Shown here in pieces: positions 1,145 to 20,345 of a stretch of DNA of 29,031 nt (the first letter of the stretch is position 1; every line of letters starts with the position of its first letter). The stretch is from a virus, in IMG/VR virus record IMGVR_UViG_3300005529_001109, positions 1 to 29,031 of that record. One strand, 5' to 3'. A model generated the notes under the pieces. That model was not told the DNA's origin. It made no database searches and saw nothing but the letters and a program-made list of their open reading frames with translations. Made by a program: the position numbers and the translations under genes.

Positions 1145-2994
1145 ACATCGCCCAGCACCGCCTCGAGGCCCTCGAAACCGTTGCGCGATTCGAGCGCGAA
1201 AACAACAGCCTGCGCAAAGCCTGTTTCCTCGCCGGCCAATCCCCCGCGACCATCCTGCGGTGGCGCCGGGAGTTCGCTGCGGGCGGCGCGCTGGCGCTCG
1301 AGCCAAAAACCGACAACTGCGGCCGCAAACCGCTCGTCACGCTGAACGAGGAGGAATGCAAGCTCGCGAAAAAGTTTTACATCCAGACCGGCTCGAAAAC
1401 CTCCGCGTTGCGCCTGCTCGCGCATCACGACGCCTGCCGGCAGGAAGTGGCCGACGCCATTCTCAAGCGCCGCCGGAGCAAACACACCATCACCCGCCAT
1501 CTCCGTGAGCAGATCGAGCTGCCGCACGCCGTCACCATGTATCACAAATCGCCCGAATCCGTCCGCCGCAACGCCTTCATCTGCCCGCGCACGCTCAGCT
1601 ACATCGACGCGCTGGGGGCGGAGAAAACACTCCAGCCCGGCGACCTCTTCGAGCGCGACGACATGAGCAATAATTTCCTCTGCTGGGTGCCGTGGCCGTG
1701 GGGCGGCGATCCGTGCTCGGACAAATACGGGGTGCGAATCGCGCGCGGGCAAAACCTGCTGATGATCGATGTGGCGAGCCTCTATTTCGTCTCGTTTAAT
1801 TTCCTGATCCGCCTGCGCGACAGCTACCGCGCCGACGACATCTGGCAGTGGGTGCATCAGACTTACCGTGACGTCGGCATGCCGCGGATCGGCGAGCGCT
1901 GGGAGCGCGGCACATGGGCGAGCAAAAAGCTGCGTGGCGATGAGGAAGCGGTGATCGAGGCCGGCCACACGGATGAAGCGGCACGGCTCGGCGGCATGGG
2001 CGCGCTCGGTTTGCGGGTAATCGAATCGCAAAGCCCGACCACGAAGATCATCGAGAACCGGTTTAACTTTTTCCAAACCATCTGCGCCACCATTCCGGGG
2101 CTCCAGATCGGGCGCCGGCGCGGCGAGATGGAGCGCGAGAATAAAATCTGGACCGCGTGCCGGCTCGGCCATCGCGACCCGCGCGAATACTGCCTCAGCT
2201 TCGAGGAAGTGACCGACCAGATCGAGGCGAAGATCCATTACGTCAATAGCGAGCCGGTCGAGGGCGAGCTTTACCGCGGCGTGCCGGCGGAGATCTGGGC
2301 GCGCGGCATTGCGGAGAACCCGCTGCGCGCGATCGAGCCGGAGCAGGCTTACCTTTTCGCGCGGGACAAGCATACGATCACCACCAGCAAAGGCCACGTG
2401 AAAGTGCGCTTTACCGACCCGGACGGCGCACGCCGTGCCTGGTGGTTTTACCACGAGAATCTTTACCGGCACGAGGGCGGGCGTTTTGCGGTTTACCTCG
2501 ACCATTACAATGCCGAGGCCGGCGCGACTCTGGTGCATGCCGAGGGGCGCGACACCGGCAAGGTGCTCGGGCACGCGGAGCTCATCCACGGCTGCCCACA
2601 ATTCGCGCTCGGCTTCCAGACCGGCGAGGAAACCGACGCGGCCGACCGCACGCTCGGCGCGCTCGATCGCAAGCGGGATTTTACCGATGCCGTGCGCAGC
2701 GAATACCGCAGCTTCCACCCGAGCGGCCGCAGGCTCGGGCGCGTGGCCCAGGTCGATGACGGGCGAGGGCGTGCAGCCAGCATCGCCTCGCGTGGCGACC
2801 ATTCTCCGCGTCTCCCGGCCGGTGGGCCTGGGAATCCATTGTTCGACGGCGCCGGTGCCAAGGGACGCCGCGCCGCCGCCGGGGACGCGGGGACCATTTC
2901 CACACGCCGCCACTACGACGAGGACGCCGAGCTCGCGCACCTCGCCAAGCTCGAGGCCCGAGCTCGAGAGGACGGAATAATTTTGCCGGTCTGA
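1141..2994 (+). CDS. Mu-like DDE transposase (MuA family)
   Basis: The 617-residue protein should catalyse DNA strand transfer for integration and replicative transposition of the phage genome. An N-terminal helix-turn-helix (about residues 15-60, SPATILRWRREF) precedes an RNase-H-like core (about 165-310). The first catalytic Asp is D173 or D174 (FERDDMSNN) and the last Glu is E305 (TKIIENRFN). At the place of the middle Asp, the Mu motif IDNTRGA aligns with GERWERGTW, giving E252 rather than Asp. A C-terminal beta domain is followed by an Ala/Gly-rich tail ending in a helix, where MuA contacts MuB. The start at 1141 overlaps the previous stop (ATGA). A MuB-like ATPase lies downstream, which supports the call. 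Confidence 0.9.
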   Translation: MNIAQHRLEALETVARFERENNSLRKACFLAGQSPATILRWRREFAAGGALALEPKTDNCGRKPLVTLNEEECKLAKKFYIQTGSKTSALRLLAHHDACRQEVADAILKRRRSKHTITRHLREQIELPHAVTMYHKSPESVRRNAFICPRTLSYIDALGAEKTLQPGDLFERDDMSNNFLCWVPWPWGGDPCSDKYGVRIARGQNLLMIDVASLYFVSFNFLIRLRDSYRADDIWQWVHQTYRDVGMPRIGERWERGTWASKKLRGDEEAVIEAGHTDEAARLGGMGALGLRVIESQSPTTKIIENRFNFFQTICATIPGLQIGRRRGEMERENKIWTACRLGHRDPREYCLSFEEVTDQIEAKIHYVNSEPVEGELYRGVPAEIWARGIAENPLRAIEPEQAYLFARDKHTITTSKGHVKVRFTDPDGARRAWWFYHENLYRHEGGRFAVYLDHYNAEAGATLVHAEGRDTGKVLGHAELIHGCPQFALGFQTGEETDAADRTLGALDRKRDFTDAVRSEYRSFHPSGRRLGRVAQVDDGRGRAASIASRGDHSPRLPAGGPGNPLFDGAGAKGRRAAAGDAGTISTRRHYDEDAELAHLAKLEARAREDGIILPV

Positions 2995-3022
2995 CAGCCC
3001 GGCGGAAACCAAACGACAACAA

Positions 3023-3042
3023 CAAACCGACAGGAGAAAATG
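3023..3042 (+). promoter_or_regulatory. Strong ribosome binding site ACAGGAGAAAA
   Basis: The motif lies directly before the ATG at 3040, after a 45-base A-rich gap with no other feature. The same ACAGGAGAAAA string precedes the Gam-like gene at 4961. It fixes both starts and contrasts with the late genes, which lack such sites. Confidence 0.7.
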
Positions 3043-3384
3043 AAAAAACAGACAAAAGAAAATGCGGCACCAGCCGTTAAACACACGCCAGGACCGTGGA
3101 CAATCTCGAAGGTTGATCCCGGAGTATCCGAAGGCGCTTCCTACGCCTTAACAACGGTCGTCGAAACCGAGGAACGCCATATCGCGTTTTGCTTTAGTGA
3201 TTCCCCGGCGGACGCGCAGTTGATCGCAGCCGCGCCTGAGATGTTCAACACGCTTGTTGAAATCTGCGACACTTTCCTGAACTGCCCGGAGCACGAATTG
3301 GTGCAAAAGATTGAAGAGAACTATCTCCGCGCAAGGAATGTTCTCGCGGAAATAACGGGAGAGGAGGCCGCACATGGCGCCTGA
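3040..3384 (+). CDS. HTPGPW-motif phage protein of unknown function
   Basis: The 114-residue protein contains HTPGPW near the N-terminus and the ADAQLIAAAPEM block in the middle. This pair defines a common family of small phage proteins whose function is unknown. The start has a clear ribosome binding site. Its 3' end overlaps the ATPase gene by 11 bases. Position between transposase and ATPase suggests an early function, but nothing in the sequence indicates a specific activity. Confidence 0.85.
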   Translation: MKKQTKENAAPAVKHTPGPWTISKVDPGVSEGASYALTTVVETEERHIAFCFSDSPADAQLIAAAPEMFNTLVEICDTFLNCPEHELVQKIEENYLRARNVLAEITGEEAAHGA

Positions 3385-4372
3385 ACTTTTCAAAACCATG
3401 GAGGCAAATGAGCTGCGCGAGCTGGCCCAGAAGATCAAGGATTACCAGGAGGCGAAGAAACTCACCTTCGCGCTCCTGCTCAAGAAATTCCGCGGGATCG
3501 GCAGCGACAAGACGTTCAATCGCATCCTCGCCGGCGATCTCTCCGAGCTCGACCTCGAGAAGCAGCTCAATAATTACCGCGCAGTCTGGGCGCTCATCGA
3601 GTCGCTCGGCGACGAGGAGGCCGACGAGGAGGAGTTTTACGACGACCTCTTCCCGGTGATCCAGCTCAAGCGCGCGTTTTTCGAGACCACGCGCGAGAAT
3701 GGCAATGGCCGCGTGATCTTCCTGCTCGGGCCCACCGGCTCCGGCAAAAGCTGCGCGCGCAAGCTGCTCATCGAGAAATACGGCGAGCGCCTGCTCTGGA
3801 TCGAGGCGAGCGAAGCGTGGGGCGGCAGCCCGATGGCATTCCTCGGCGCGATCCTGGTCGCGCTCGGTAAAAAGGATGTGCCATACGGCCAGGTCGATCG
3901 GTTGAACCTCGTGATCCAGCTCTTGAAAGCGAGCCGCCGCTGCCTGGTGATCGAGGAGGCGCATCACCTCGGCCCGCGCAACCTCAACGTGCAGGTGACG
4001 CTGGTGAACCAGACGCCGGGCGAGTTTGTGAATCTCGCCATCGACACGCTCTGGAAAAAGCTCGAGAGCGCGGCATACGAGGAATGCCGGCAGCTCACAG
4101 GGAACCGGCTTGCCGAGCGGATCAACCTGGGGCGCGAACCGCGCGAGAGCGACGTCTGCAAGCTGCTCGAGCGCCGCATCAAGTGGGCCGATCCCGACCC
4201 GAAGAAAGCTTCCAAGCAAGCCGCGAAGCTCGTGCTGGATAAGGCTGCAAATTATGGCCGGCTGGCCTTCGTGCGCGATGTCTGCAAACGCGCCAATGAA
4301 ATGGCCGAGAGCAAACCGGTGGACATCGAGCTCTTTGCCGGCGCTGTCACGGAGGAGGTGGCGAGCCGATGA
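3374..4372 (+). CDS. MuB-like AAA+ ATPase, transposition target-selection protein
   Basis: The 332-residue protein has a helical N-terminal region that may bind DNA (residues 10-60), a Walker A motif GPTGSGKS at about residue 119 and a Walker B-like CLVIEEAHH at about residue 190. A helical AAA lid ends near residue 320. MuB-type proteins bind target DNA, form ATP-dependent filaments and deliver targets to the transposase. Its position one gene downstream of the transposase fits that role. It overlaps both neighbours, so expression is probably coupled. Confidence 0.9.
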   Translation: MAPELFKTMEANELRELAQKIKDYQEAKKLTFALLLKKFRGIGSDKTFNRILAGDLSELDLEKQLNNYRAVWALIESLGDEEADEEEFYDDLFPVIQLKRAFFETTRENGNGRVIFLLGPTGSGKSCARKLLIEKYGERLLWIEASEAWGGSPMAFLGAILVALGKKDVPYGQVDRLNLVIQLLKASRRCLVIEEAHHLGPRNLNVQVTLVNQTPGEFVNLAIDTLWKKLESAAYEECRQLTGNRLAERINLGREPRESDVCKLLERRIKWADPDPKKASKQAAKLVLDKAANYGRLAFVRDVCKRANEMAESKPVDIELFAGAVTEEVASR

Positions 4373-4626: not shown

Positions 4627-4958
4627 GTCTTTCCATCCACGATCCAAATTGCCCGAAATGGTATCGCGCGTTTGTCGAGCGCAAGCGCGTGAAGGTCCGC
4701 AAGCCGCGCGGTAAACGCCGCGGCACGCTCTGCTCGCGTGACCGGCGCAACCGCACCGGCTGTGTCGGCATCAGCCTGGTCACCACGAAGGTGCACGGGC
4801 ACGAGTCGCTGTTCTTCGCCGCGCATGCCGGCGGGACGAACCGCAAGTTTCGCATCGACACCCTGGGCCGCGAGGAAGCGTGGCGCCGGGCTCTTCAATT
4901 TCGCGCCGCCTTCGAGCAGCGCGCCACCGCAGCAAAAAACCCACAGGAGAAAAACTAA
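4623..4958 (+). CDS. Basic protein with AP2-like DNA-binding domain
   Basis: The 111-residue product has a very basic N-terminal half (about residues 20-45, rich in Arg and Lys). A segment from GCVGISLV through to EEAWRRALQFRAAF resembles the three strands plus helix of AP2/integrase-type DNA-binding domains found in phage HNH endonucleases and stand-alone phage regulators. No nuclease motif is present, so a stand-alone DNA-binding protein is more likely. The match is by pattern only and needs a profile search. Confidence 0.6.
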   Translation: MSLSIHDPNCPKWYRAFVERKRVKVRKPRGKRRGTLCSRDRRNRTGCVGISLVTTKVHGHESLFFAAHAGGTNRKFRIDTLGREEAWRRALQFRAAFEQRATAAKNPQEKN

Positions 4959-4960
4959 AA

Positions 4961-5512
4961 ATGACCACACGCATCAAAATCATCAGCACCGGCCTTAAGA
5001 CCCGCGAGGAAGTCGAACGCCTCGTCCGCGAGACGGCAAAGCTTCAGCTTTTGCGCGAGTCGAGCATCATCGAGCGCGACCAGGAAATCGCCGCCGTCTC
5101 GAATAAGCACAACAAATATATCGACGGATACGGCCTCAAGATCGAATCCAACATGGCGCTCATCGAGCAATGGGCGAGCGTCCATCCCGAGGAGTTTCCA
5201 AAGGACAGCCGCTCGCTCGTGATCGATGGCAATCGGCTTGGTTACCGCCTCGGCCAGCCGCAGCCGAAGCCGATGAAAAAGCTCACGTGGAAAGCCGTGG
5301 CCGAGCGGATCAAGAAAGCCGGCGCGAAATTCGAAAACTGCTTCATCCGCACCAAGGAAGAGGTGAACAAGGAAGCCATCCTGGCCGCGAGAATGGAGGA
5401 AGGCGTGCTCGAGACGATCGGCATCGAAATCGTGCAGGCCGAAACCTTCTACCTCGACCCGAACCGCGAAGGCCAGCCGGAGAAACGTCTCACCACGGAG
5501 GTGGGGGCATGA
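4961..5512 (+). CDS. gam: Gam-like host-nuclease inhibitor
   Basis: The 183-residue protein matches the Mu Gam layout. A long N-terminal helical coiled region (residues 10-85) is followed by a beta-rich core with NRLGYRLGQ, and then a short helical C-terminus with KKAGAKFENCFIRTKEEVNKEAI. Gam binds double-strand DNA ends and shields linear phage DNA from host exonucleases; it is related to Ku. The start at 4961 follows a strong ACAGGAGAAAA ribosome site. The location after MuB matches the semi-essential early region of Mu. Confidence 0.85.
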   Translation: MTTRIKIISTGLKTREEVERLVRETAKLQLLRESSIIERDQEIAAVSNKHNKYIDGYGLKIESNMALIEQWASVHPEEFPKDSRSLVIDGNRLGYRLGQPQPKPMKKLTWKAVAERIKKAGAKFENCFIRTKEEVNKEAILAARMEEGVLETIGIEIVQAETFYLDPNREGQPEKRLTTEVGA

Positions 5513-5736
5513 GCGAGTTCGCGATCACGATCAACCAGCCGAAAAAGCCGGATGCGTTGATCATCTTCGACCGGCACGGCGCGCAGATCGATTCGCTGCC
5601 GTGGACGGTGGAGAATCATCGCTACGCGCTCGGCTTTGTGGATGCGCTTTTTGCCTACGATTTGATCACCGGCGAAGAGCATGACCGGCTGCACATCGAG
5701 ATTCAAACCGCGGTTTCCCGCGCGGAGGGACATTAG
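5509..5736 (+). CDS. Hypothetical early phage protein
   Basis: The 75-residue product starts MSEFAITINQPKKPD, with an ATGA overlap with the Gam-like gene. It looks like a compact alpha/beta protein with no recognisable motif. The longer upstream reading in the same frame is a shadow of the Gam gene and is rejected. No function is proposed. Confidence 0.7.
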   Translation: MSEFAITINQPKKPDALIIFDRHGAQIDSLPWTVENHRYALGFVDALFAYDLITGEEHDRLHIEIQTAVSRAEGH

Positions 5737-6407: not shown

Positions 6408-6641
6408 ATGGCGTTCCGCGTCTACGGCACCCAGATGCCGCTCATTTTCGGCGCGCGGGCGCTCAAGCCGATCACCGATCTGCCGGCCGGCGCAAAGGTG
6501 CGGGTGCGGATGCGCACCGGCAAAATCGCCGTGGCGTTTGTCAAAACCGCGGACGGGATCACGGAATACATTTTGTTAGACAACGGCGACACGTGGGCGC
6601 TCGGCCCGCGCAAAGCCGCCAACGCGAGGATCGAGGCATGA
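6408..6641 (+). CDS. Hypothetical small beta-rich protein
   Basis: The 77-residue protein contains a barrel-like central part (AKVRVRMRTGKIAVAFVKTA) consistent with an SH3-like or OB-like fold. It has no catalytic motif. It starts just after the previous stop and overlaps the next gene by ATGA. Function unknown. Confidence 0.65.
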   Translation: MAFRVYGTQMPLIFGARALKPITDLPAGAKVRVRMRTGKIAVAFVKTADGITEYILLDNGDTWALGPRKAANARIEA

Positions 6642-6778
6642 AAACCAGCAATGCAAAGCAACGCCGCCGGCGCGCAAAGGCCATGCGCCTTTTGCACCGC
6701 AGCGGCGAGCGTCAATGCCGGCTCCTGCTCCTGATCCGCGACAACCCGGAGATGGAGCATCTCTATTACCGCCGATGA
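6638..6778 (+). CDS. Very small basic protein
   Basis: This 46-residue Arg/Lys-rich peptide (QRRRRAKAMRLLHR) is linked to both neighbours by ATGA overlaps, which is the main evidence that it is translated. Its high charge suggests nucleic-acid binding, but no domain is visible. The longer in-frame reading from 6593 is rejected because it lies within the previous gene. Confidence 0.55.
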   Translation: MKTSNAKQRRRRAKAMRLLHRSGERQCRLLLLIRDNPEMEHLYYRR

Positions 6779-7101
6779 GCCCGATCGATTACCGCAACGC
6801 CACTTTCGAGAGCCTGCGCGAGCGCCTGCACGGGCTGCGTTACCTTGTGCTCGAGGCGTGGCGCGTGCACGGCCCCGGCACCACGCGCGAGGTCGCCGAG
6901 CGCGCGCACATGGACATTCTCACATTTCGCCCGCGCACTACCGAGCTGGTGCAGCTCGGCTTTGTGCACCTGGTAGATGAAGAGCGCGGCGGCACCGAGG
7001 GCCGCTACGAAGCACTGAGCGATGAGCAGGCCCGCTCCATTTTCGAGCATCGCCGGCACGAGGCGATCCATGGCTTTCAACCGGAGCTGAATTTAAAATG
7101 A
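6775..7101 (+). CDS. Winged-helix DNA-binding protein
   Basis: The 108-residue product has a winged-helix layout: a helix (YLVLEAWRVHGPGTTREVAERA), a recognition helix (LTFRPRTTELVQLG) and a wing (VHLVDEERGGTEGRYEAL). It is probably a transcription regulator of the phage middle genes, although the target is unknown. The start at 6775 forms an ATGA overlap with the previous gene, and its stop overlaps the next start. Confidence 0.75.
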   Translation: MSPIDYRNATFESLRERLHGLRYLVLEAWRVHGPGTTREVAERAHMDILTFRPRTTELVQLGFVHLVDEERGGTEGRYEALSDEQARSIFEHRRHEAIHGFQPELNLK

Positions 7102-8240
7102 GCACGCAAACGAAAATCGAATGGTGCGACAACACGTTTAACCCGTGGATCGGCTGCACGAAGGTGGATGAGCTGTGCGCGCACTGCTACGCGGAGACAC
7201 GCGACAAGCGGCACCTGATCGAGAAGGTGGATCATTGGGGAAAAGGCGCGCCACGGCTGCGCACCAGCGCCGCGAACTGGCGGCTGCCGTTGAAGTGGAA
7301 CTCAACGAAGATTTGCGAGAAATGTAAGACGGCTCTGCGGCTAAATGTGTTGTCGTGCTCATGCGGCGGCGTAACCACGACCGGGCCGGAGGTCACGTTC
7401 ACCTTTCGCCGCCCGCGCGTTTTCTGCGCGTCGCTGGCCGATTGGCTCGATGACGAGGTGCCGATCGAATGGCTGGCCGATCTGCTCGCGCTCATCCACG
7501 CCACGCCGAATCTCGACTGGCTGCTGCTCACCAAAAGGCCGGAGAATTGGATGTCGCGACTCGTGAAGGCAATGAAGCATAACGAGGACGCTGGCGGTGC
7601 GTTGGAATTGCACACGTGGCTTCTTGACTGGGTGACGAGCAAGTCAATTGGAGCGGCACCGACAAACGTCTGGATCGGCACGAGCGTTGGCACGCAAAAG
7701 AGCGCCGATTTGCGCATCCCGCAACTGCTGCAAATCCCAGCGAAAATCCGTTTCCTGAGCTGCGAGCCGCTGCTCGGGCCGGTGCGGCTCATTGGTGCTA
7801 CAGAAACGCTGCCTTATGAGTTTGCTGCGACGGGTATGGGGTGGAGCGATTCAAACGTGCAATATGAACGCCTCGCGGAGCCAGGTATTCATTGGCTGAT
7901 CTGCGGCGGAGAATCCGGCGCGCACGCCCGCCCGATGCACCCCGACTGGGCGCGCTCGCTCCGCGACCAATGCGCCGCTGCCGGCGTCCCGTTTTTCTTC
8001 AAGCAATGGGGTGAGTTTGCCCCCTCATGCGCGCAATATCCGCAGAACGAAAGCGAGCACTGGGAGGCCGAACGAGCAGGCAATTATGGCGACATCGCTT
8101 TGGAACCGGACGGGACGATCGCAGAAGGCTACCAGCCTATCTCGAAGCGCACATGGCTCATGAATCGCATCGGCAAAAAAGCCGCAGGCCGCGCGCTCGA
8201 CGGCATCGAGCACAACGCTTTCCCGGGAGAACCGAAATGA
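7098..8240 (+). CDS. Gp37/Gp68 family protein (DUF5131), radical-SAM-like
   Basis: The 380-residue protein matches the phage Gp37/Gp68 (DUF5131) family. Residues 6-30 hold KIEWCDNTFNPWIGC with a Cys20-x6-Cys27-x2-Cys30 triad, followed by WLLLTKRPENW, FLSCEPLLG, ICGGESGAHARPM and PFFFKQWGE. The cysteine triad and barrel-like order suggest an iron-sulfur, radical-SAM-type enzyme. The substrate is unknown. An extra four-cysteine knuckle (Cys73, Cys76, Cys87, Cys89) is inserted after the first strands and may be a zinc ribbon. It overlaps both neighbouring genes. Confidence 0.88.
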   Translation: MSTQTKIEWCDNTFNPWIGCTKVDELCAHCYAETRDKRHLIEKVDHWGKGAPRLRTSAANWRLPLKWNSTKICEKCKTALRLNVLSCSCGGVTTTGPEVTFTFRRPRVFCASLADWLDDEVPIEWLADLLALIHATPNLDWLLLTKRPENWMSRLVKAMKHNEDAGGALELHTWLLDWVTSKSIGAAPTNVWIGTSVGTQKSADLRIPQLLQIPAKIRFLSCEPLLGPVRLIGATETLPYEFAATGMGWSDSNVQYERLAEPGIHWLICGGESGAHARPMHPDWARSLRDQCAAAGVPFFFKQWGEFAPSCAQYPQNESEHWEAERAGNYGDIALEPDGTIAEGYQPISKRTWLMNRIGKKAAGRALDGIEHNAFPGEPK

Positions 8241-9493: not shown

Positions 9494-9780
9494 AACTGGA
9501 AACCGAGATCACCGCCGAGTTGCACGCGGAGATGCTCGCCGCGCTGCTGAGCTACCGCCGAGAGCCGATCGCGATCGACGTCTCGACCCCGCAGCTTTTC
9601 GCGCTGGCGCTGCGCAACGAACGGATCCGCACCGCGCAATGCCTGGACAAACTTTTTGAGATCATGAAACGCGGCCGGAAACCGGCGCTCGACTGCGAGG
9701 TGATCGATCGCGTCGAGAGCGTGCGCCGCCTTTTCCTCGAGAACGAACAATCGGAACCCGGAGTGCTCAACCCCTCATGA
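9490..9780 (+). CDS. Hypothetical helical protein
   Basis: The 96-residue product is predicted to be mainly helical and has no recognisable motif. It is linked by ATGA to the genes on either side, so it is probably translated as part of the early operon. No function is proposed. Confidence 0.65.
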   Translation: MKLETEITAELHAEMLAALLSYRREPIAIDVSTPQLFALALRNERIRTAQCLDKLFEIMKRGRKPALDCEVIDRVESVRRLFLENEQSEPGVLNPS

Positions 9781-10175
9781 AACCGCCGTCCTCAGAAGTC
9801 ACCGTTTACCCCGTGGGAATCAAGGTCAAGGTCGCGCCGGACGATCAGCTCACGCTCTGGCCCGATCATCTGCCGGTGCCGGAGATCGGCGTGTTTGAAT
9901 GGGTGGCGCAGGGCGACGGCAATTACAAGCCGATGATCCGCCTCCACCCGAAGCTGGTGCGCATGGGCGAATCGACGATCAAGGAGCTCGGCCTCGGCGT
10001 GAGCTACAACAGCCTGCGCCGGCTGATGACCGGCGGTTTTGTGCGTTACGTGCAGGTGACGCCCGGCAATTACGCGGTCGATTTGCAGAGCTTTTACCAG
10101 CACATCGCGAAGGTCAAAGCCGACCCCGATTTCTGGACCGGCAAAAACCTCAAGAAATACATGGAGGCGATCTGA
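9777..10175 (+). CDS. Putative helix-turn-helix protein at the end of the early operon
   Basis: The 132-residue protein has a C-terminal stretch (VSYNSLRRLMTGGFVRYVQVTPGNYAVD, read in pieces) that looks like a helix-turn-helix with a wing, as in excisionase-like proteins. It is the last gene before the integron-like segment. Its stop codon (10173-10175) lies within the R''-like core of the first attC-like site, an arrangement common for cassette genes. However, it overlaps the previous gene by ATGA and has no cassette-type 5' boundary, so I treat it as a phage gene. Confidence 0.7.
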   Translation: MKPPSSEVTVYPVGIKVKVAPDDQLTLWPDHLPVPEIGVFEWVAQGDGNYKPMIRLHPKLVRMGESTIKELGLGVSYNSLRRLMTGGFVRYVQVTPGNYAVDLQSFYQHIAKVKADPDFWTGKNLKKYMEAI

Positions 10176-10260
10176 ACGCAAAGCTCATGGACGGCGCACA
10201 GGAAGGCGTTCGCGCTGCGGAACGGTGCGAAGCGCCGTTCCATGCAGCGCCTGGCTCGGC
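10171..10260 (+). other. attC-like recombination site 1
   Basis: An R''-like core TCTGAAC (10171-10177) is followed by a left arm CATGGACGGCGC (10186-10197). That arm pairs over 12 base pairs with GCGCCGTTCCATG (10232-10244), leaving T10238 unpaired. The R'-like core is GCTCGGC (10254-10260). The text AACGCAnAGCT after R'' is shared with the site at 10940. R'' and R' do not match each other, as expected when they come from different cassettes or from a recipient site. It could alternatively be a remnant or the insertion target (attI equivalent). Confidence 0.65.
10221..10243 (+). other. Short hairpin nested in attC-like site 1
   Basis: GGAACGGTGC at 10219-10228 can pair with GCGCCGTTCC at 10232-10241 around a GAA loop, with one G-T wobble. 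This competes with the longer attC stem. No T-tract follows, so it is not called a terminator. Confidence 0.45.
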
Positions 10261-10272
10261 GAACGTAAGCGG

Positions 10273-10289
10273 CGCTCCGCAGCGGAGCG
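10273..10289 (+). other. Hairpin in cassette 1 leader
   Basis: CGCTCC (10273-10278) pairs with GGAGCG (10284-10289) around a GCAGC loop, just upstream of a purine-rich ribosome site (GGGAGG) for the cassette 1 gene. It could influence translation; that is only an inference. Confidence 0.4.
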
Positions 10290-10317
10290 GAGCGGGCGGG
10301 GAGCGGGAGGAAAATCT

Positions 10318-10623
10318 ATGATCGCAAAAACCAAAGTTACCTTCGACATGGCCTTCAACTCGGAGGGCGGCGAATGCAAAACGACCGTGGCATTCGTGTT
10401 CACGGACCACCCGGAAATCCCGGTGCCCGATGGCATCCGAGAAATGCTAATCGGCGAAATCAGGATGCTCTGTGGCGCAATGGACGCCGCGCGACTGGAA
10501 CTCTTTTCCGAGGGGGCGGGGGTTGGGAAGAAACGCTCCGACTCGAAGCCGCGCCATTCGCCGAGCGACCAGGCTCACCCCACTGCCGCGAGAGCGACCG
10601 TGGACGGCACTGAAAATTTATGA
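10318..10623 (+). CDS. Integron cassette 1 protein, unknown function
   Basis: The 101-residue product has a folded-looking N-terminal part (residues 1-62, with beta strands KVTFDMAF and KTTVAFVFTD) and a polar, low-complexity tail from about residue 66. The tail is encoded partly inside the cassette's own attC region, as is common for cassette genes. A GGGAGG ribosome site lies seven bases before the ATG. No family is recognised. The ATGA at its end coincides with a longer reading of the next gene, but that start falls outside cassette 2. Confidence 0.65.
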   Translation: MIAKTKVTFDMAFNSEGGECKTTVAFVFTDHPEIPVPDGIREMLIGEIRMLCGAMDAARLELFSEGAGVGKKRSDSKPRHSPSDQAHPTAARATVDGTENL

Positions 10624-10687
10624 GTGATACCAAAAGCATCGAATCAGAGACGTCAGCGGCAGCTGCGGGCGCAGCGCCTTGTTCGGC
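10560..10687 (+). other. attC-like recombination site 2 (end of cassette 1)
   Basis: R'' GCCGAGC (10560-10566) is the exact complement of cassette 1's own 5' boundary GCTCGGC (10254-10260). The match extends to 11 of 12 bases (CATTCGCCGAGC against 10254-10265). The 3' core GTTCGGC is at 10681-10687, preceded by GCAGCGCCTT, which resembles the same region of site 1. A 7-base inner stem CTGCCGC/GCGGCAG is visible. The folded structure is less regular than in sites 1 and 3. Confidence 0.65.
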
Positions 10688-10697
10688 ATTGGTGGAC

Positions 10698-10958
10698 ATG
10701 GCAATCGGTGACTACGTGGCGATGCTCGAACGCCAAAACAAATATCTGCGAAAGGAACTCCACAAGAATGAGGCGAGGCTGAAATGGCTGCACGACTGCT
10801 CAACTGGCCAGACCGACCCGGAGGGCTACGAGTGGGGAATCTACCGCGTGAAATGGGAGAACGGGAAAGCGGTGTCCGTGATGCAAACCAACTCAGACCT
10901 GAGCGACCTCGATGCTGAGATGGCGCGGGAACTGAATACGCCTAACGCAGAGCTATGA
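10698..10958 (+). CDS. Integron cassette 2 protein, unknown function
   Basis: The 86-residue product begins MAIGDYVAMLERQNKYL with a helical coiled segment. A beta-rich part follows (EWGIYRVKWENGKAVSVMQT). The start at 10698 lies 16 bases inside the cassette boundary at 10682. An upstream in-frame ATG at 10620 would start in the preceding cassette's attC and is less likely native. Its last codons (NTPNAEL) run through R'' of its own attC. No family is recognised. Confidence 0.6.
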   Translation: MAIGDYVAMLERQNKYLRKELHKNEARLKWLHDCSTGQTDPEGYEWGIYRVKWENGKAVSVMQTNSDLSDLDAEMARELNTPNAEL

Positions 10959-11027
10959 GACGCCGGACACGAGACGTTGAATTTTGTGAGAGCGCCATCC
11001 GGCGTTCTCATCAGCGATTGGTTAGCT
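10940..11027 (+). other. attC recombination site 3 (end of cassette 2)
   Basis: This is the clearest attC. R'' GCCTAAC (10940-10946) fits RYYYAAC perfectly. The arm ATGAGACGCCGGA (10955-10967) pairs over 13 base pairs with TCCGGCGTTCTCAT (10998-11011), leaving T11005 unpaired. R' GTTAGCT is at 11021-11027. Bulged bases of this kind define strand choice in integron recombination. The stop codon of cassette 2 lies inside the site. R' starts cassette 3. Confidence 0.85.
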
Positions 11028-11031
11028 GAAA

Positions 11032-11466
11032 ATGACAACCAAAACCAAACTTATGGAAGTGCAAATAACTGTGCCGAAAAAGGCAAAGATGAATGTCGTG
11101 GAAAAAGAATATCCCGACATCTATCAGGACGGCGACGAAGCGCATGACGACCTCAGCTACTTCGTGGGCAAGTCCTCGGATGAAACTCTCGAAGAAGGCG
11201 AAACGGAATGGATGACACGCGCCGCGGCAATCGCTTGCTGCGGCTTCGTGGAAGGTGCGATACCCGGAGCAGAGACGATGCTCGAAGGTAACGGCGGCTG
11301 GGCGCAAGGGATGCTCAGTCGAAAAGACTTCTCCGGCCTCGCCATCAGCAAATCGGCGAAACGCGAATACAAGCGCGAAAGCGACATCTACTGGAAGGCG
11401 TTCCGGCGTGGCAAGCGCCTTTCAGCTAACAGTGTATTGAACGAACAGGAGGCGCATAATGAGTGA
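11032..11466 (+). CDS. Integron cassette 3 protein, unknown function
   Basis: The 144-residue acidic-then-basic protein starts MTTKTKLMEVQITV, ten bases inside the cassette boundary at 11022. It shows helical segments but no family I recognise. A central block WMTRAAAIACCGFVEGAI may form a buried helix. Codon use is more AT-rich than the phage genes. Its last residues read through the R'' core of a truncated attC, and its stop overlaps the integrase start by eight bases, so integrase translation may depend on it. Confidence 0.7.
   Translation: MTTKTKLMEVQITVPKKAKMNVVEKEYPDIYQDGDEAHDDLSYFVGKSSDETLEEGETEWMTRAAAIACCGFVEGAIPGAETMLEGNGGWAQGMLSRKDFSGLAISKSAKREYKRESDIYWKAFRRGKRLSANSVLNEQEAHNE
11420..11430 (+). 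other. R'' half of a truncated attC (cassette 3)
   Basis: TTTCAGCTAAC is the exact complement of GTTAGCTGAAA at 11021-11031, the 5' end of the same cassette. This is the pairing expected between R'' and the cassette's own R'. Only 28 bases separate it from the integrase ATG and no right arm or GTTRRRY core is seen, so the attC appears cut off. Confidence 0.65.
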
Positions 11467-12454
11467 GAAAAAAGCCGGGTTGCTGGCGAAGTTTCGCGAG
11501 ATGGCGGCGCTCGATGAGTTGTCGAAAAACACGATCGATACCTACACGTGCTGGTTGCGGCAATTCGCGGCTTACACGCGCAAAGGCGCGGCTTCGTGGT
11601 CGGGCGCGGATGTCTCGGCGTTCATCCATTGGATGCACCGCGAGCGCTATTCGTCGGCGTCGCGCAAGCAGGCTCTCTGCGCGATCATTTACGCCTTCAA
11701 ACGCGTGCTGCAAATCGATCCGGGCCGGTTCGATCTGCCGCCGATGCCGCACGAGAAAAAGAAGCTCAAGATTATCCCGACTCGCAGCGAGCTTTCGACT
11801 TTGTTCACGCACCTGCGCGGACGCGACTGGCTCATGGCCCAGCTTCTTTACGGCTCGCTCTTGCGGGTCTCGGAATGCTGCATGTTGCGCGTGAAAGACA
11901 TTGATTTTGAAAATGGAAAGATCGATATCCATTCCGGCAAAGGCGACAAGGATCGCAAGACCTGGCTGCCTGAATCGCTCATCGCTCCGCTGCGCAAATG
12001 GATGGAATGGCGAGCGGCACTGCACCAGTGGGATCTCGGGCAGGGCCACGGCTGCGTGGAATTGCCGGGAAGGCTCGCGCGCAAATATCCAAGCCGCACG
12101 CGCGAACTCGGCTGGCAATATGTGTTCCCCTCGCAGATCGTGCAGCCGGATGGAACGCGCTGGCATACCACGCCGGAGTCTTTCCAAAAATCGCTCCGCA
12201 AAGCGCGCGCGGCGGCTGGGATCATCAAGGATTTAACGCCGCACACGTTGCGTCATGCTGGGGCGACGCACGGGCTGCGCACGCCGGGCAACGACATCGA
12301 GATCATCCGCGAAACACTCGGGCACACGAATCTTGAAACGACGCAGATTTACATTCATGCCGACGAAGCCGGGGGCGTGAGCCCGCTGGATGTGGGAGTT
12401 TCGCTGGCGCGTCCTGCCCTGCCGCCGCGCCGCATCTATCAACTCCATGGCTGA
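11459..12454 (+). CDS. intI: Integron-type integrase (IntI-like tyrosine recombinase)
   Basis: The 331-residue tyrosine recombinase has an N-terminal core-binding domain (about residues 18-90) and a catalytic domain with R136 (GSLLRVSEC), K164 (GKGDKDR), H262/R265 (PHTLRHAGATH), H289 (LGHTN) and nucleophile Y298. Residues about 190-225 (LPGRLARKYPSRTRELGW) match the extra helix region that separates IntI from XerC/D. Size is close to IntI1 (337). A strong AGGAGG ribosome site precedes the start. It overlaps the cassette 3 gene and the head gene by eight bases each. It should recombine the adjacent attC sites; activity is inferred. Confidence 0.87.
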   Translation: MSEKKAGLLAKFREMAALDELSKNTIDTYTCWLRQFAAYTRKGAASWSGADVSAFIHWMHRERYSSASRKQALCAIIYAFKRVLQIDPGRFDLPPMPHEKKKLKIIPTRSELSTLFTHLRGRDWLMAQLLYGSLLRVSECCMLRVKDIDFENGKIDIHSGKGDKDRKTWLPESLIAPLRKWMEWRAALHQWDLGQGHGCVELPGRLARKYPSRTRELGWQYVFPSQIVQPDGTRWHTTPESFQKSLRKARAAAGIIKDLTPHTLRHAGATHGLRTPGNDIEIIRETLGHTNLETTQIYIHADEAGGVSPLDVGVSLARPALPPRRIYQLHG

Positions 12455-15400
12455 TTTCCTTTTTAAACCGAGCCCGCACAAGCAGGCGGCGGAGTTCATC
12501 GCATCGAAGCCGGTCGTCTCGCGCGAGGTTTTCAGCAAGCTCCTGCCCGAGCTGCGGGCGCGGGCGTTCGTGATCTCCGGCGTCGAGGCCGCGAACGTCG
12601 TGCAAGGCATCCGCGACCGGATCGCGGAGCTGCCGCAGGGCGCGAACTGGGATGACGTGAAGGATGATCTCGTGGCCGAGCTGCATCCGTTTTTGCGCAA
12701 TGAAGACGACCCGGAAAACACCGTGGCCGCCGAGCGCCGGGCCGAGCTGCTCCTGCGCACGCACGGCTTCCAGGCTTACCAGGCGAGCGCGTATGAGGTG
12801 ATGGACCGCCAGCGCGATGTGCTGCCGTATTGGCAATACCACAGCATGGGCGACTCGCACGTGCGGCCCACGCACGCCGCGCTCAACGGCGTGGTGCTGC
12901 CGGCGGATCACGAGTTTTGGCGCACGCATTTTCCGCCGTGGGATTACGGTTGCCGCTGTCAAATTATCCCGATCTCACAGGTGGACGTGGATGAAATCGC
13001 GGCACGCGACGCGCAGAAAAACCCCGATAACCGCAGCGTGCTCGACCCCGACGCGCAGGCACAGCTCAGCTACCCGACGCGCCGGCTGGTGCGCAATGGC
13101 GTGAGCTACTACATGGCCGCGCCGATCGAGGAAAACAAACCGGGCGCATTCTACTGGCACCCCGGCGACCTCCGGATCCCGCTCGAGGAATTAAAAGGCC
13201 ACTACGACGCGCAGACGTGGAGCGATTTCCAGGGCTGGGCGAAAAAGACGCGGATCCCCGACGTCAATAAAACCGTGTGGGGCTGGCTCGGCGGCTCGGT
13301 CGAATGGCCGGAGCTCGATGAGCTTTCAAAAGTAAAACGCCTGGGCGGATCCACCGGCGCCGAGCTGATGCGCGATGGCGAGGGCCGGAAGTTCGTGCTC
13401 AAGCGCGGCGCGAGCGCGGACCATCTCAATGAGGAAGCGGCCGCGGACCAGGCTTATCTCGCCGCCGGCTTGAACGTGCCGAAGATGAAGATCTACACCA
13501 CGCCGGCCGGCCCGGTGAAGCTCGCCAAATACATCGAGGGCACCACGCTCCAGAGCTATCTCGCAAAGGCGACGGCGGAGGAAGCCGCACTCGCGATCGC
13601 GAAGGTGCAGAGCGGCTTTGTGGCCGATGCGCTCTTTGCCAATTACGACGTGGTGGGGCTCGACCTGGACAATATCCTGATCGACAAAACGGGGCAGGTC
13701 TGGCGCATCGACAATGGCGGCAGCTTCCGCTTTCGTGCGCGTGGCGGCGCGAAAACCGGCTGGGGGCCGAAGGTCACCGAGTTGCAGACGATGCGCGATG
13801 CGAAGATCAACCCGAGCGCCGCGCGCGTGTTTGGCTCGATCACCGACACGGAGATCCGCCGGCAGATCGGCGAGCTGATGGTAAAGCGCGAAGCGATCCT
13901 CGCGGCGGTGCCGCACGAGCTGCGCGACGTCCTCGCGAAACGGTTTGAAAACCTCGAGGAAATGCTCGCGCCGTCCGGTGGCGATTTTGCGAACGAAGTG
14001 GTCGAGAGCCGGATCGTCGGCAAAGTGAGCAAGCGCGACCGGGGCGACATCGAAAATACGCAGGTGCTTTTCTGGCAGGAAACCGGATCGAGCGGCAGCC
14101 ATGTCACACGCGCGAAACTCAAGCTCACCGAGGCGGGATCCGCGCGGGTGATGGAGCGGCTCGCCGCCAGCCTGCCATCGGTGCCGGCGGGCGTGGCGAA
14201 GGCCGCGACCGATGCGTATTGGCCCGGCATCCTCGATGCGCTCAAGACCGTGAACCAGCATGCGGGCGATGGCGCCTACAACATGGCGAAGCTGGCGAAA
14301 CTCGATGAGATCAAGGCCAAGCTCACCGCGCTGAAAAAAGATGCCGCGCTGAAAAAACATTACCTCGGGATCATCGACGGCATCGAGAAAGCGAAAGCGG
14401 CGAAAGTGAAGACGCCGATGTTTGCCGCCTACGTGCCGAAGGCAAAAGCGCCGCCGGTTGCCGCCGCGCGCGAATTTCAAATCAAGCGCGGGCATGTGCC
14501 GTATCTCAGCAAAACCACCGAGCGCGGCCGTGCGCGCGAGGGCGATCAATCGATCTACCAGCACGACGCTTATTTGATCGATCTCGGCGGCAGCAAAATC
14601 AAGCTGGTGCCGTTTAAGGAAAGCAACGGGGCGGACTTCAACGCGCCTTACGCGCTGCGCGGTTACGTGGAAGTGCTGCACCCGGCGGAGAGCTCGGAAA
14701 AAACGATCGGCGACATGCTCGAGCATCTCGCGAAGATCGGCATCGACACCGAACCGGCGAACGATGCGTATGCCGAGCAGCTCTATTTGCGCAAAGGCAT
14801 GCAGATCCGCACCGATGTTTTCACGCCGGAAAAATTGCAGGCGGCCGACGCCGTGCTCGCCTCGGCCAAAAACGATGCGGAGAAAGTGGCCGCGCTCAAG
14901 GAAATGGTGAAAAAGGAAATGGGGATCGATCTGCCCGAGCGCATCACGCCGGACTACGATCCGCGCGGGCACGCCAATTCCTTCGGCCAGGGCTGGGTGC
15001 GCACCGAGCGCTGGGATCTGCCGCGCGCGCAGGTGGAAAAGGAGATGAAGGATTACCGGTTGCACCACAGCTCCGCCACGCCGCTGCCCGAGCTGGTCGA
15101 TTCCATTCTCAATGGCGGCGGTGATTTCACCGCGACCACCGAGCGGCTGCGCAAGGGCATCGCGATCAATCGCGGCATGTCGCCGCAGGCCGATCTCGAC
15201 ACCGGCGGCGCCAATTACCTTTTCACCCGCATCCAGGGCAAGGCGAAGGCGCTCAAAAGCACCGGCATCAATTTCAAGATCGGCCTCCTCTCGCGGCAGG
15301 ATGCGTTTAGTTTTAACAGCGACCGGTTCGGCAATGTGAAGGATGCGAGCGCGTATGCGGCGCGCGCGAAAACGATCGCCGATCTCAAGCAGTGGTCGAA

Positions 15401-15569
15401 GGCGGGCGGCAATGAGACGATTTTAAAATGGGGCGTGCCGTTCCTGGATGAAGTCGATTCGATCGTGTGCGGCAGTGACGCGCAGCGCAAAGCGGTGCTC
15501 GATGTGTTTGCCCGGCATGGCTACGATGCACTGCCAGATGGCCGCAAAATCACGGAGATCCTCAAATGA
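12447..15569 (+). CDS. Mu gpF-like head morphogenesis protein fused to kinase-like and ART-like domains
   Basis: The 1040-residue protein starts with an SPP1 gp7/Mu gpF domain (residues 1-190, with SHVRPTHAALNG and WDYGCRCQIIPIS), which helps assemble the portal-proximal head. A kinase-like domain follows (about 295-515), with K319 (KFVLKRG), D406/D408-N409 (GLDLDNILID) and D422 (WRIDNGGSF) in positions of the HipA/PI-kinase-type lysine, catalytic and metal-binding residues. After a helical linker, the C-terminus (about 900-1040) has INRGMS and TGGANYLFTRIQ, suggestive of an ADP-ribosyltransferase-like fold. Such fusions are known as polyvalent proteins, which are packaged and delivered with DNA. 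Ordinary gpF is about 400 residues. Confidence 0.85.
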   Translation: MADFLFKPSPHKQAAEFIASKPVVSREVFSKLLPELRARAFVISGVEAANVVQGIRDRIAELPQGANWDDVKDDLVAELHPFLRNEDDPENTVAAERRAELLLRTHGFQAYQASAYEVMDRQRDVLPYWQYHSMGDSHVRPTHAALNGVVLPADHEFWRTHFPPWDYGCRCQIIPISQVDVDEIAARDAQKNPDNRSVLDPDAQAQLSYPTRRLVRNGVSYYMAAPIEENKPGAFYWHPGDLRIPLEELKGHYDAQTWSDFQGWAKKTRIPDVNKTVWGWLGGSVEWPELDELSKVKRLGGSTGAELMRDGEGRKFVLKRGASADHLNEEAAADQAYLAAGLNVPKMKIYTTPAGPVKLAKYIEGTTLQSYLAKATAEEAALAIAKVQSGFVADALFANYDVVGLDLDNILIDKTGQVWRIDNGGSFRFRARGGAKTGWGPKVTELQTMRDAKINPSAARVFGSITDTEIRRQIGELMVKREAILAAVPHELRDVLAKRFENLEEMLAPSGGDFANEVVESRIVGKVSKRDRGDIENTQVLFWQETGSSGSHVTRAKLKLTEAGSARVMERLAASLPSVPAGVAKAATDAYWPGILDALKTVNQHAGDGAYNMAKLAKLDEIKAKLTALKKDAALKKHYLGIIDGIEKAKAAKVKTPMFAAYVPKAKAPPVAAAREFQIKRGHVPYLSKTTERGRAREGDQSIYQHDAYLIDLGGSKIKLVPFKESNGADFNAPYALRGYVEVLHPAESSEKTIGDMLEHLAKIGIDTEPANDAYAEQLYLRKGMQIRTDVFTPEKLQAADAVLASAKNDAEKVAALKEMVKKEMGIDLPERITPDYDPRGHANSFGQGWVRTERWDLPRAQVEKEMKDYRLHHSSATPLPELVDSILNGGGDFTATTERLRKGIAINRGMSPQADLDTGGANYLFTRIQGKAKALKSTGINFKIGLLSRQDAFSFNSDRFGNVKDASAYAARAKTIADLKQWSKAGGNETILKWGVPFLDEVDSIVCGSDAQRKAVLDVFARHGYDALPDGRKITEILK

Positions 15570-17111: not shown

Positions 17112-17178
17112 ACCCCTTTTCCACCCTTTCCACGGCTCTTAGACGCTGTGAAAAGTGCCGCTAACGTCGGCTCTCGTG
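17112..17178 (+). promoter_or_regulatory. Repeated leader element, copy 1
   Basis: A pyrimidine-rich tract is followed by CCACCCTTTCCACGGCTCTT and AGAC, almost identical to the copy at 26892. CACGGC can pair with GCTGTG around the loop TCTTAGAC. A weaker match continues to the start codon (GTG at 17176 here, ATG at 26960 in copy 2). No Shine-Dalgarno site is present. A structured translational or transcriptional control element is inferred. Confidence 0.7.
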
Positions 17179-18246
17179 ATTCGCAGCAAAACGCAACCGG
17201 TTCTCATCGGCCTCAGTGCCGCCCCGGTCCTCATCGCCCTCCACGCCGCCGCGCCGGCGTTCAGGGAACTGATCGCCTGCCAGGCCATCCCGAACGATGC
17301 GTTGCAAGCCGACGAGCTGCCGACACGGCTCAAGCTTTTCAACTGGGGCGAAAATAAAACGGCGACCAAGGGCACGTTCGTCGTCGGCCCGAAAACGCTC
17401 GCCTCGCTCGCCGCGAACCAGAAAGCGCATGGCTTCGATAAAGTCGCGCTCGATTTCAACCACAACTCGCTCAAGGGCCATCCGAATTTCAAACCCGATC
17501 CGCGCGAGGTGGCCGCCTACGGCACGCCGGTGGTGATCGAGGGCGAGGGCCTTTTCCTCGATGGGCTGAGCTACACGCCCAGCGGCAAAAAGTTTGCCCG
17601 CGAGTATGCCGATCTCTCGCCGACGCCGGCGCGCGACCCGGAGACGGGCGAAGTGATTTTTCTCCACAGCGTCGCGCTTTGCCCGCAGGGCGAGGTCGAG
17701 GGGCTGACCTTCCTTTCTGCCGATGTCCTCGGCGAAACCAAAACGCAAACCACACACAAAAAAGTAACCACCAAAGTCATGGACTTCAAAAAACTCCTCT
17801 GCGCAATTCTTTCACTCGACCCGGACACGGCGACCGACGAGGACATCCAGGCCGCCGCCGAGAAATACGGCAAAACCGAAAAGACGGAAGCCGGTGCTGA
17901 CAAAGCCGTCGAGGCGCTGAGCAAGGCGCTCAAGCCATTTGGCGATCAGCTCGTCGCGCTGCAAAGCCGCCTGGACAAACAGGACCGCGATAACCTGGTG
18001 GCGCTCGCGATCCGCGACGGCAAGGAAATCCCGAAGTCCGCGCTCGAGGGCGATACCGCCGTCAACAACGCGCAGCTCGCCGCGCTCATCGCGGGGCTGC
18101 CGGTCACCGTGCCGCTCTCGCGCCGCACGCCCGAGAACGTCATCGACCTTTCCGCCGGCAACGGCCCGATCAGCGCCGAGCAGGCCGCGATCAACCGCAA
18201 CCTCGGCATCAGCGACGACCAGTTCAAAAAGCATAACGCAAAATAA
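17176..18246 (+). CDS. Mu gpI-like head maturation protease/scaffold
   Basis: The product (356 residues from GTG 17176, or 363 from GTG 17155) has the Mu I protein layout. LKLFNWGENKTATKG and VALDFNHNSLKG fill the place of the protease Asp-His region. GLFLDGLSYTPSGKKFAREYADLSP and LHSVALCPQG follow. The C-terminal half is a helical, Glu/Lys-rich scaffold segment with a short QAAINRNLGISDDQF end. It should process and guide capsid assembly. The 17176 start is preferred by alignment of the upstream leader with the copy at 26892. Neither start has a ribosome site. Confidence 0.85.
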   Translation: MIRSKTQPVLIGLSAAPVLIALHAAAPAFRELIACQAIPNDALQADELPTRLKLFNWGENKTATKGTFVVGPKTLASLAANQKAHGFDKVALDFNHNSLKGHPNFKPDPREVAAYGTPVVIEGEGLFLDGLSYTPSGKKFAREYADLSPTPARDPETGEVIFLHSVALCPQGEVEGLTFLSADVLGETKTQTTHKKVTTKVMDFKKLLCAILSLDPDTATDEDIQAAAEKYGKTEKTEAGADKAVEALSKALKPFGDQLVALQSRLDKQDRDNLVALAIRDGKEIPKSALEGDTAVNNAQLAALIAGLPVTVPLSRRTPENVIDLSAGNGPISAEQAAINRNLGISDDQFKKHNAK

Positions 18247-18259
18247 ATCTCCTGTTGGG

Positions 18260-18294
18260 CCGTGGCGGCGGTCGCTCGCCGCTGCGGTTTCTTT
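18260..18294 (+). terminator. Hairpin with T-rich tail between protease and cement genes
   Basis: CCGTGGCGGCG (18260-18270) pairs over 11 positions, two of them wobbles, with CGCCGCTGCGG (18277-18287) around GTCGCT, followed by TTTCTTT. It looks like an intrinsic terminator or an attenuator that would raise the ratio between the gene sets. No promoter is seen downstream. Confidence 0.55.
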
Positions 18295-18324: not shown

Positions 18325-19287
18325 ATGAGCGCAGCCACCACATCCATCAACACCCCCAAGCGCGACGGCGATTTCCTTCGCAACCTGCCGATCGCAGCCT
18401 CCACGAAGCTTTACGTCGGCACTCTCGCGGCGATTGACGCCAGCGGCAACCTGGTAAGCGCGAGCGACACCGCTTCGCTGCGCGTGCTCGGCGTGGTGCA
18501 GCCGAACCCGGATGGCACCAGCGGCGATTACGACAATAGCGCCGGCGCTGCGGGTGATCTGCTCGCGGTGGTCGAGCGCGGCATTTTCAAAGTTACCAAC
18601 TCCGGCACGCAGCCGGTGACCAAGGCGTATGTGGGCGCCGCGGTTTACGTCGAGGACAACCAGACGGTTGCGATCTCGACCTCGCACTCGATCCCCGCGG
18701 GCATCGTGGTGGAGATCGATGACGACGGCGATGTCTGGATCGATACCCGGCTCCACTTGATGGTGGTCGGCACGCCGAGCGATGGCACGATCACCGCCGC
18801 CAAGCTCGCGTCGAACGCGGTTACCACCGTGAAAATCACGGACGCGAATGTGACCGGCGCGAAACTTTCCGCAGCGGCAAACCTGCGCTCGATCGTGATC
18901 CCGCTCGGCACCATCGCGACCACAGGCTCGACCAAAGTCACGATCCCCGCGCCATTGGCGGGCACGCTGAGCGCCGTGAAATTCTGCGGCAAGGATGCGC
19001 TCGCGACGAGCGACACCAATTACCTCACGTTCGCCCTGACCAATAAAGGCCAGGCGGGAGCGGGCACCACGGCGATGCTTTCGGCCACGGCCTCCGGCAC
19101 CACGCAGGCGACCGGCGGCTCGGCCATCGCGGCTTACACCACGCGGGACTGTCCGCTGCACGCAACCGCGGGCAACGCGGCGATCGCGGCCGGCGACTGC
19201 CTCGAGCTGAGTGTCACCGCCACCGGCACACTCGCAAACACCGTTACCGAGGCCACGATCCGCCTCGACTACACCTTCACGGCATAA
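18325..19287 (+). CDS. Capsid cement/decoration protein (DUF2190-like)
   Basis: The 320-residue protein has an N-terminal part (about 15-140: SGNLVSASDTASLRVLGVV, AVVERGIFKVTN, AYVGAAVYVEDNQ) of the type found in DUF2190 and other capsid cement proteins next to Mu-type major heads. A second beta-rich domain from about residue 150 to the end is longer than usual and may be exposed on the head surface. The leader is A/C-rich with no Shine-Dalgarno site. Confidence 0.75.
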   Translation: MSAATTSINTPKRDGDFLRNLPIAASTKLYVGTLAAIDASGNLVSASDTASLRVLGVVQPNPDGTSGDYDNSAGAAGDLLAVVERGIFKVTNSGTQPVTKAYVGAAVYVEDNQTVAISTSHSIPAGIVVEIDDDGDVWIDTRLHLMVVGTPSDGTITAAKLASNAVTTVKITDANVTGAKLSAAANLRSIVIPLGTIATTGSTKVTIPAPLAGTLSAVKFCGKDALATSDTNYLTFALTNKGQAGAGTTAMLSATASGTTQATGGSAIAAYTTRDCPLHATAGNAAIAAGDCLELSVTATGTLANTVTEATIRLDYTFTA

Positions 19288-19397: not shown

Positions 19398-20345
19398 ATG
19401 CAAATCAATCAAGCAAACCTCGCCGCCCTCTTCAAAGGTTATCGTGTCGTCTATATGGAAGCCTACCAGGGCGCCACGCCCATGTGGGACCAGATCGCGA
19501 TGCGAACCCCCAGCGCTTCCGCACAGGAGATTTATCACTGGCTCGGTGCCGTGCCTGGAATGAAAAAGTTCCTGGGCGAAGTGGTGATCGAAAACCTCGC
19601 CGCCAACAAATACGCGATCACGAACGATGAGTTCGAATCGACGGTGGGCGTGAAAAAGGCCGACATTGAGCGCGACACCTACGGCGTTTACAATCCGCTC
19701 ATGAGCGCGATGGGTGTGGCCGCGAAGGAACATCCGGACGAACTCACCGCCGATCTGCTCAACAACGGCTTCGATTCGCTCGATTACACGGGCAAGAACT
19801 TCTTCGACTCGAACAAAGTGCAGGACGGTGACCCGAAGAGCACGAAGTTCACCAATGTGGCGACCGCGAAGCTCGGGCCCACAGCCTTTGCCGCTGCGAA
19901 GGCTTCGCTCAAGAGCCGGAAAAACTCGAAAGGCCGCCCGATGGGCCTTGGCCGCAAGTTGCAGTTGATCGTGCCGCCCGCGCTGGAAACGATCGGCCTC
20001 GAAATCTTGAAGGCTGATAACATCCAGCAGACTGCGCGCAATACGGACGCGAAGGCGGTGGCCTCGGTCACCAACGTGCAGAAAGGCACTGCCGAGCTGG
20101 TGGTGTGGAGCCGCCTCACGAGCGACGACGCGTGGTTTTTGCTGGAAACCGGCATGCCGGTAAAACCGCTGATCGTGCAGTTCGAGCAGGAAGCCAGCTT
20201 CCAGGCGCTCACGAACCCGGACAGCGATCACGTGTTCAAAAAGAAAGAATTTCTCTACCAGGCTTACGGCCGTTACAACGCGGGCTACGGCCTGCCGCAG
20301 CTCGCCTATGGCAGCGACGGCAGCACCGGCACGCTCGGCGCGTAA
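19398..20345 (+). CDS. Mu gpT-like major head subunit
   Basis: The 315-residue protein matches the Mu major head family. The N-terminal NLAALFKGYRVVYMEAYQGA is followed by HWLGAVPGMKKFLGE, YAITNDEFESTVGVKKADIERD, and late blocks LVVWSRLTSDDAWFLLE and RYNAGYGLPQLAYGS. It forms the capsid shell. Order after protease and cement protein equals that of Mu-like head modules. No ribosome site precedes the ATG; the leader is A/C-rich. Confidence 0.92.
   Translation: MQINQANLAALFKGYRVVYMEAYQGATPMWDQIAMRTPSASAQEIYHWLGAVPGMKKFLGEVVIENLAANKYAITNDEFESTVGVKKADIERDTYGVYNPLMSAMGVAAKEHPDELTADLLNNGFDSLDYTGKNFFDSNKVQDGDPKSTKFTNVATAKLGPTAFAAAKASLKSRKNSKGRPMGLGRKLQLIVPPALETIGLEILKADNIQQTARNTDAKAVASVTNVQKGTAELVVWSRLTSDDAWFLLETGMPVKPLIVQFEQEASFQALTNPDSDHVFKKKEFLYQAYGRYNAGYGLPQLAYGSDGSTGTLGA

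Follow-up and report, generated by a model that had tools for sequence, protein, structure and literature searches.

A probable three-cassette integron with reversed genes in a Mu-like phage lineage

The 29,031-nucleotide stretch of viral DNA analysed here (IMG/VR record IMGVR_UViG_3300005529_001109; hereafter the window) probably harbors a small three-cassette integron which forms part of a Mu-like phage lineage, with two hairpins named in an earlier sequence-only reading representing two of its three attC sites. The predicted components comprise an IntI-type recombinase, an attI-like block, three attC sites, one of which is degenerate, and three cassette units whose boxes occur in the expected order. 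The likely genes of all three cassettes are predicted on the plus strand, against the direction of the attC sites and in the same direction as the phage genes and intI.

The first hairpin is formed by 12 base pairs (positions 10186-10197 with 10232-10244) and the second by 13 base pairs (10955-10967 with 10998-11011), with T10238 and T11005, respectively, bulged after six pairs, while the AACGCAnAGCT and CAGCG blocks are common to both sites. These features had all been recognized in the sequence-only reading, but it allowed each site a single extrahelical base where there are two: C10245 in the first site and C11012 in the second are bulged on the same arm, followed by three further pairs (AGC with GCT). 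The plus strand of both sites carries a T-N6-C arrangement, with the two extrahelical bases six pairs apart, and as such represents the bottom strand, so that both sites are in minus-strand orientation, the reverse of the direction initially assumed. The box beside AACGCAnAGCT, labelled R'' at the time, is R', whose GTT core is read from the minus strand. The attC1 site (10171..10260, minus strand; R'' GCCGAGC at 10260-10254, R' GTTCAGA at 10177-10171) forms the end of the array, where it abuts a phage gene (9777-10175), and both of its boxes are off consensus (5/7 each). The attC2 site (10940..11027, minus strand) contains the R'' box AGCTAAC (11027-11021) and the R' box GTTAGGC (10946-10940). 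A third, degenerate site, attC_mid (10560..10687, minus strand; R'' GCCGAAC, R' GCTCGGC), has lost the GTT core. The interpretation as attC sites, based on conserved structure with different stem sequence, is borne out, and an integron integrase adjoins them, but the third site had been overlooked and the cassette genes oppose the attC direction. The T-N6-C arrangement is found in most sites of the host family, whereas the class 1 cassette attC treated in PMC3053210 is T-N6-G.

A covariance model was trained on 20 of the 33 candidate sites from outside the window, all of them cellular attC sites on other contigs. In the training alignment the stated stem has 94.2% paired cells, and its covariation score lies above those of all 500 shuffles. 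Applied to the whole window with filters off, the model matched both hairpins, in keeping with the expectation of the sequence-only reading, and in addition attC_mid, all on the minus strand (attC1, 10260-10166: 35.3 bits, E-value 4.3e-8; attC2, 11027-10940: 31.6 bits, E-value 4.5e-7; attC_mid, 10687-10560: 29.3 bits, E-value 2e-6). The fourth-ranked match reached 11.6 bits, and matches above chance are confined to the minus strand. The model is narrow, recovering only one site of the cellular array L030 at E<=1. By a geometric scanner, the score of the second site was reached by 0/300 dinucleotide shuffles of the whole window, as was the joint occurrence of two 13/13 sites of the same geometry, while that of the first site was reached by 123/300, and a geometric scan alone is therefore insufficient to establish attC1. 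The scanner demands a GTT, which lets attC_mid and both sites of the related prophage G033 (see below) escape. The geometry of attC1 and attC2 matches that of cellular attC sites from the host family.

A stable bulged stem, as anticipated earlier, is obtained on DNA folding for attC2, whose plus strand adopts the attC fold at its energy minimum (P 0.28; -16.1 kcal/mol), but not cleanly for attC1, where a competing local hairpin (-23.6 kcal/mol) is favored by 4.2 kcal/mol over the attC fold (-19.4 kcal/mol; P 4e-4). The attC_mid fold is no better than those of shuffles (z-score 0.0). As attC1 prefers another hairpin and has off-consensus boxes, while attC_mid has decayed, lacking both the GTT and an unusual fold, attC2 is perhaps the only site active at present.

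The intI gene (11459..12454, plus strand) has an intact reading frame and codes for a 331 amino acid integrase with the catalytic residues R-K-H-R-H-Y and the IntI-specific insert, both present in the motif alignment. Its best curated match is NCBIfam TIGR02249 (261.4 bits; E-value 1.2e-77), and as it falls 3.6 bits short of the cut-off of 265 we term the integrase divergent. The nearest solved structure is VchIntIA (2a3v; E-value 1e-44). Aligned by this structure match, five of the eight residues described in PMC3053210 as touching the extrahelical bases are kept (K209, Y210, W219, P232 and H241), while Q145, W157 and H240 are changed. AlphaFold models of IntI and of the protein of the adjoining cassette gene c (mean pLDDT 43.8 and 35.6, respectively) were both too low in confidence for a structure search. 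An attI-like site (11424..11446, minus strand) is located 28 nt upstream of intI and consists of a conserved block, GTTCGTTCAATACACT, followed by G^TTAGCT. The 19 nt up to the GTT are identical at 15/19 positions between the window and G033, at 16/19 between G033 and the viral contig L098, and at 14/19 between the window and L098, a match which taken alone is weak, being reached by 38/200 shuffles. Over the next 19 nt past the GTT these values drop to 3/19 (window-G033), 8/19 (window-L098) and 4/19 (G033-L098). Conservation up to the GTT followed by divergence is the pattern expected for a putative attI joined to differing cassette heads.

In an array of inserted cassettes, the R'' box of each attC should complement the R box heading its own cassette. 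The crossover points delimit cassettes a (10177..10565; 389 bp), b (10566..10945; 380 bp) and c (10946..11429; 484 bp). Complementarity is 7/7 between attC_mid R' and attC1 R'', despite the unusual boxes GCTCGGC and GCCGAGC, 6/7 between attC2 R' and attC_mid R'', and 7/7 between the attI box and attC2 R'', the attI box having been chosen partly through this last match. The corresponding links are 7/7 for the single pair in L098 and 7/7 twice in G033, where the values are not independent since the R'' boxes were placed by the chain rule. The sum for the window and G033, 34/35, was matched by 1/120 permutations. Among neighboring box pairs of the cellular array L030, five of the eight are complementary at 7/7, and the remaining three (6, 5 and 5) span gaps of more than 1.1 kb.

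Each cassette of the window contains one open plus-strand frame with a positive codon score (+0.22, +0.41 and +0.38 for cassettes a, b and c), while every minus-strand frame scores negatively. The predicted genes are a (10318..10623; 101 amino acids; +0.22 per codon), b (10620..10958; 112 amino acids from 10620 or 86 from 10698; +0.32 from 10698) and c (11032..11466; 144 amino acids; +0.37). They run with the phage genes and intI, overlapping at 10620/10623 and, where gene c extends over the intI start, at 11459/11466. All three attC sites point away from intI, so that the intI, attI and attC elements show the usual divergent layout, but the cassette genes, which in integrons usually (though not universally) follow the attC direction under the control of Pc, are reversed in 3/3 cassettes. 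The longest ORF is likewise reversed in all six phage cassettes (three in the window, two in G033 and one in L098), while it is forward in 8/8 cassettes of the integron on contig C27 of the host genome G000. It is forward in just 4/7 of the L030 cassettes, which makes ORF length alone a soft test of gene direction. No Pfam family at cut-off and no PADLOC family was found for the proteins of genes a, b and c, and for b and c there was no homolog among 50,697 phage records, nor any beyond the locus of the window itself in 40 host-family genomes; anti-host or anti-defence roles would be a guess. In-frame start codons are present within the attC loops (10225-10260 and 10620-10687), so that cassette proteins may begin with attC-encoded residues, such as AAPCSAL in gene b. 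A stretch resembling AAPCSAL can also be read in G033 after position 18494 of L054.

Judged by its predicted proteins, the window is a Mu-like transposable phage. It encodes a MuA-like transposase (1060-2994, plus strand; phrog_310) and a MuB-like protein (3374-4372, plus strand; phrog_296), a Mu F-like minor head protein (12390..15569, plus strand; PF04233), which is the conserved downstream neighbor of the locus, as well as protease, major head, connector and tape-measure genes, with the right end of the phage near the contig end. The gene beyond the far side of the array (9777..10175, plus strand) is conserved in the prophages G033 and G048 and the viral contig L091. The G033 prophage, on contig C38 of a genome of another genus in the same host family, retains the order MuA, MuB, homolog of the 9777-10175 gene, variable genes, IntI and F, with 48% identity to the window for IntI and 47% for F and nothing in common among the variable genes. 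Two attC-like sites are present in G033 (L054 18021-18114, E-value 0.042; 18427-18555, E-value 0.011), oriented as in the window; they are weak by the covariance model, ranking third and first, respectively, within 5 kb, and their folds are at or near the minimum. The same flanking genes are found in L091 and in G048 (contig C6), with no intI match between them and no strong attC remnant in L091 or in 20 kb of G048 C6 (best match: 15.7 bits, from a 25-base match). By gene content, the predicted integron occupies a locus that varies within this phage family, two of the four members found carrying it. The transposase of the window shares 57% identity with its G048 counterpart and 25% with those of G033 and L091, while its MuB-like protein is 62%, 57% and 49% identical to those of L091, G033 and G048, respectively, the mosaic pattern extending over 1060-4372. 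A further integrase is encoded by L098, 60% identical to that of G033, together with a clean attC (36.8 bits; E-value 6.7e-9) and a cassette which is likewise reversed. L098 shares no other gene with the window, its intI lies at the contig end, and its viral setting is less sure.

In the phylogeny, the window and G033 integrases form a single clade with 100/100 support, apart from the two Xer proteins of the host and among the IntI proteins, with the host C27 integrase outside. A second tree, built without L003 and L050, adds L098 to this clade (SH-aLRT 100). Among the 213 genomes of the order, IntI matches below an E-value of 1e-90 were restricted to the host itself and G033. A rival reading is passive capture, by which the prophage would have acquired part of an integron of the host chromosome, now in decay; such an acquisition has been reported for Vibrio phage p16. 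A source is at hand, as the host has its own C27 integron and a genome-wide total of 31 attC matches at E<=1 (one of them from the window), the phage attC sites resemble those of the host family, and two of the three are off consensus. Capture is nevertheless unlikely, since the phage IntI groups with that of the G033 phage and is only 38% identical to the host C27 integrase, the synteny is retained in prophages from two different host genera, the attI block is common to three elements and the intI frame is intact. Some of the attC matches away from C27 (on C11, C24, C42, C53 and other contigs) are clustered, which suggests arrays without a nearby integrase. IntI relatives are also encoded by two other viral records, L006 (IMG/VR 3300005985_000011; 6637-7614; 37% identity) and L086 (Rctr41k; 4680-5678; 34% identity), and L006 contains an attC-like site at 10541-10652 whose boxes fully match the consensus.

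Even less probable is that the integrase serves the phage as a recombinase for another task, such as integration or resolution, and that the attC sites are fossils. A score just below the IntI cut-off and the weak or decayed state of two of the three window sites would fit such a role, but integration is already provided for by the MuA- and MuB-like proteins, the integrase retains the IntI-specific insert and the five contact residues, the box chain is intact and the cassettes vary between the phages. That chance inverted repeats or terminators of transcription account for the hairpins, as the strong local hairpin within attC1 and its common geometric score might indicate, is highly improbable given the attC-model E-values of 4e-8 to 2e-6, which already disfavor that reading, the geometry shared with cellular sites and an Rfam search of the window in which no family reached its gathering score and lower matches were at chance level.

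For the integron favored here, the fact that G033 and the window carry different cassettes gives indirect support to putative IntI-mediated excision or insertion of cassettes. The integrase would fold the plus (bottom, T-N6-C) strand of an attC into a hairpin and recombine it with attI at G^TT, by which small genes would be exchanged at the accessory locus of the phage. As phage transcription runs plus-ward through the locus, it would express a cassette only if its gene is directed back at attI, and this demand for expression would select reversed cassettes. The intI gene would be co-expressed with the phage genes in lytic growth. Both the activity of the array and the selection of reversal by phage transcription are inferences. 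The broader reading, that a transposable-phage lineage has domesticated the integron as a device for swapping accessory genes, with its own IntI clade and attI, reversed cassettes selected by expression and shuffling tied to the lytic cycle, we consider evenly balanced between true and false.

Integrons in phages are already known. According to Qi et al. 2023 (PMC9892861), 10,705 genomes yielded three complete integrons and one In0, which are tied to host or class 1 integrons where a source is stated. Phages described there include Vibrio p16 and p42, P1 L-II and Shewanella M16-3; the M16-3 IntI is 95.3% identical to that of S. oneidensis. Phage integrons known so far have the appearance of fragments captured from bacterial integrons. 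The window resembles those described there in combining IntI, attI, attC and cassettes within a prophage, but differs in an IntI whose highest identity to any sequence found is 48%, its placement in a phage clade, the reversed cassettes and the Mu-like phage. It shares with the host C27 integron the attC geometry, in which two extrahelical top-strand bases, G and A, are separated by six pairs, and an intI divergent from the attC sites, but not the cassette direction. With the Treponema integrons, in which, as described in PMC3607928, intI and the cassettes are transcribed one way and intI runs toward attI, it shares the common direction of intI and cassette genes; in the window, by contrast, intI runs away from attI and the cassette genes toward it. 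The literature searched, comprising few subscription papers and no bioRxiv preprints, gave no description of a phage-lineage integrase combined with reversed cassettes. An integrase kept by a phage lineage, together with cassettes facing phage transcription that vary from one relative to another, would imply that the integron serves phages in turning over their own genes and that phages can carry cassettes from host to host. A natural array of systematically reversed cassettes furthermore makes it testable whether expression or recombination sets gene direction.

Additional elements were observed in the window away from the integron. Within the early half of this prophage, a DUF5131 protein is encoded at 7098-8240 (E-value 2.7e-84). 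A 30-nt inverted repeat (18243-18272 and 19506-19535; 73% complementary) has the ends ATAAATCTCCTGT and ACAGGAGATTTAT. Finally, a 33-nt direct repeat (17112-17144 and 26893-26925; 94% identical) is located shortly ahead of two ORF starts (17155 and 26927), and may represent a phage promoter or operator present in two copies.
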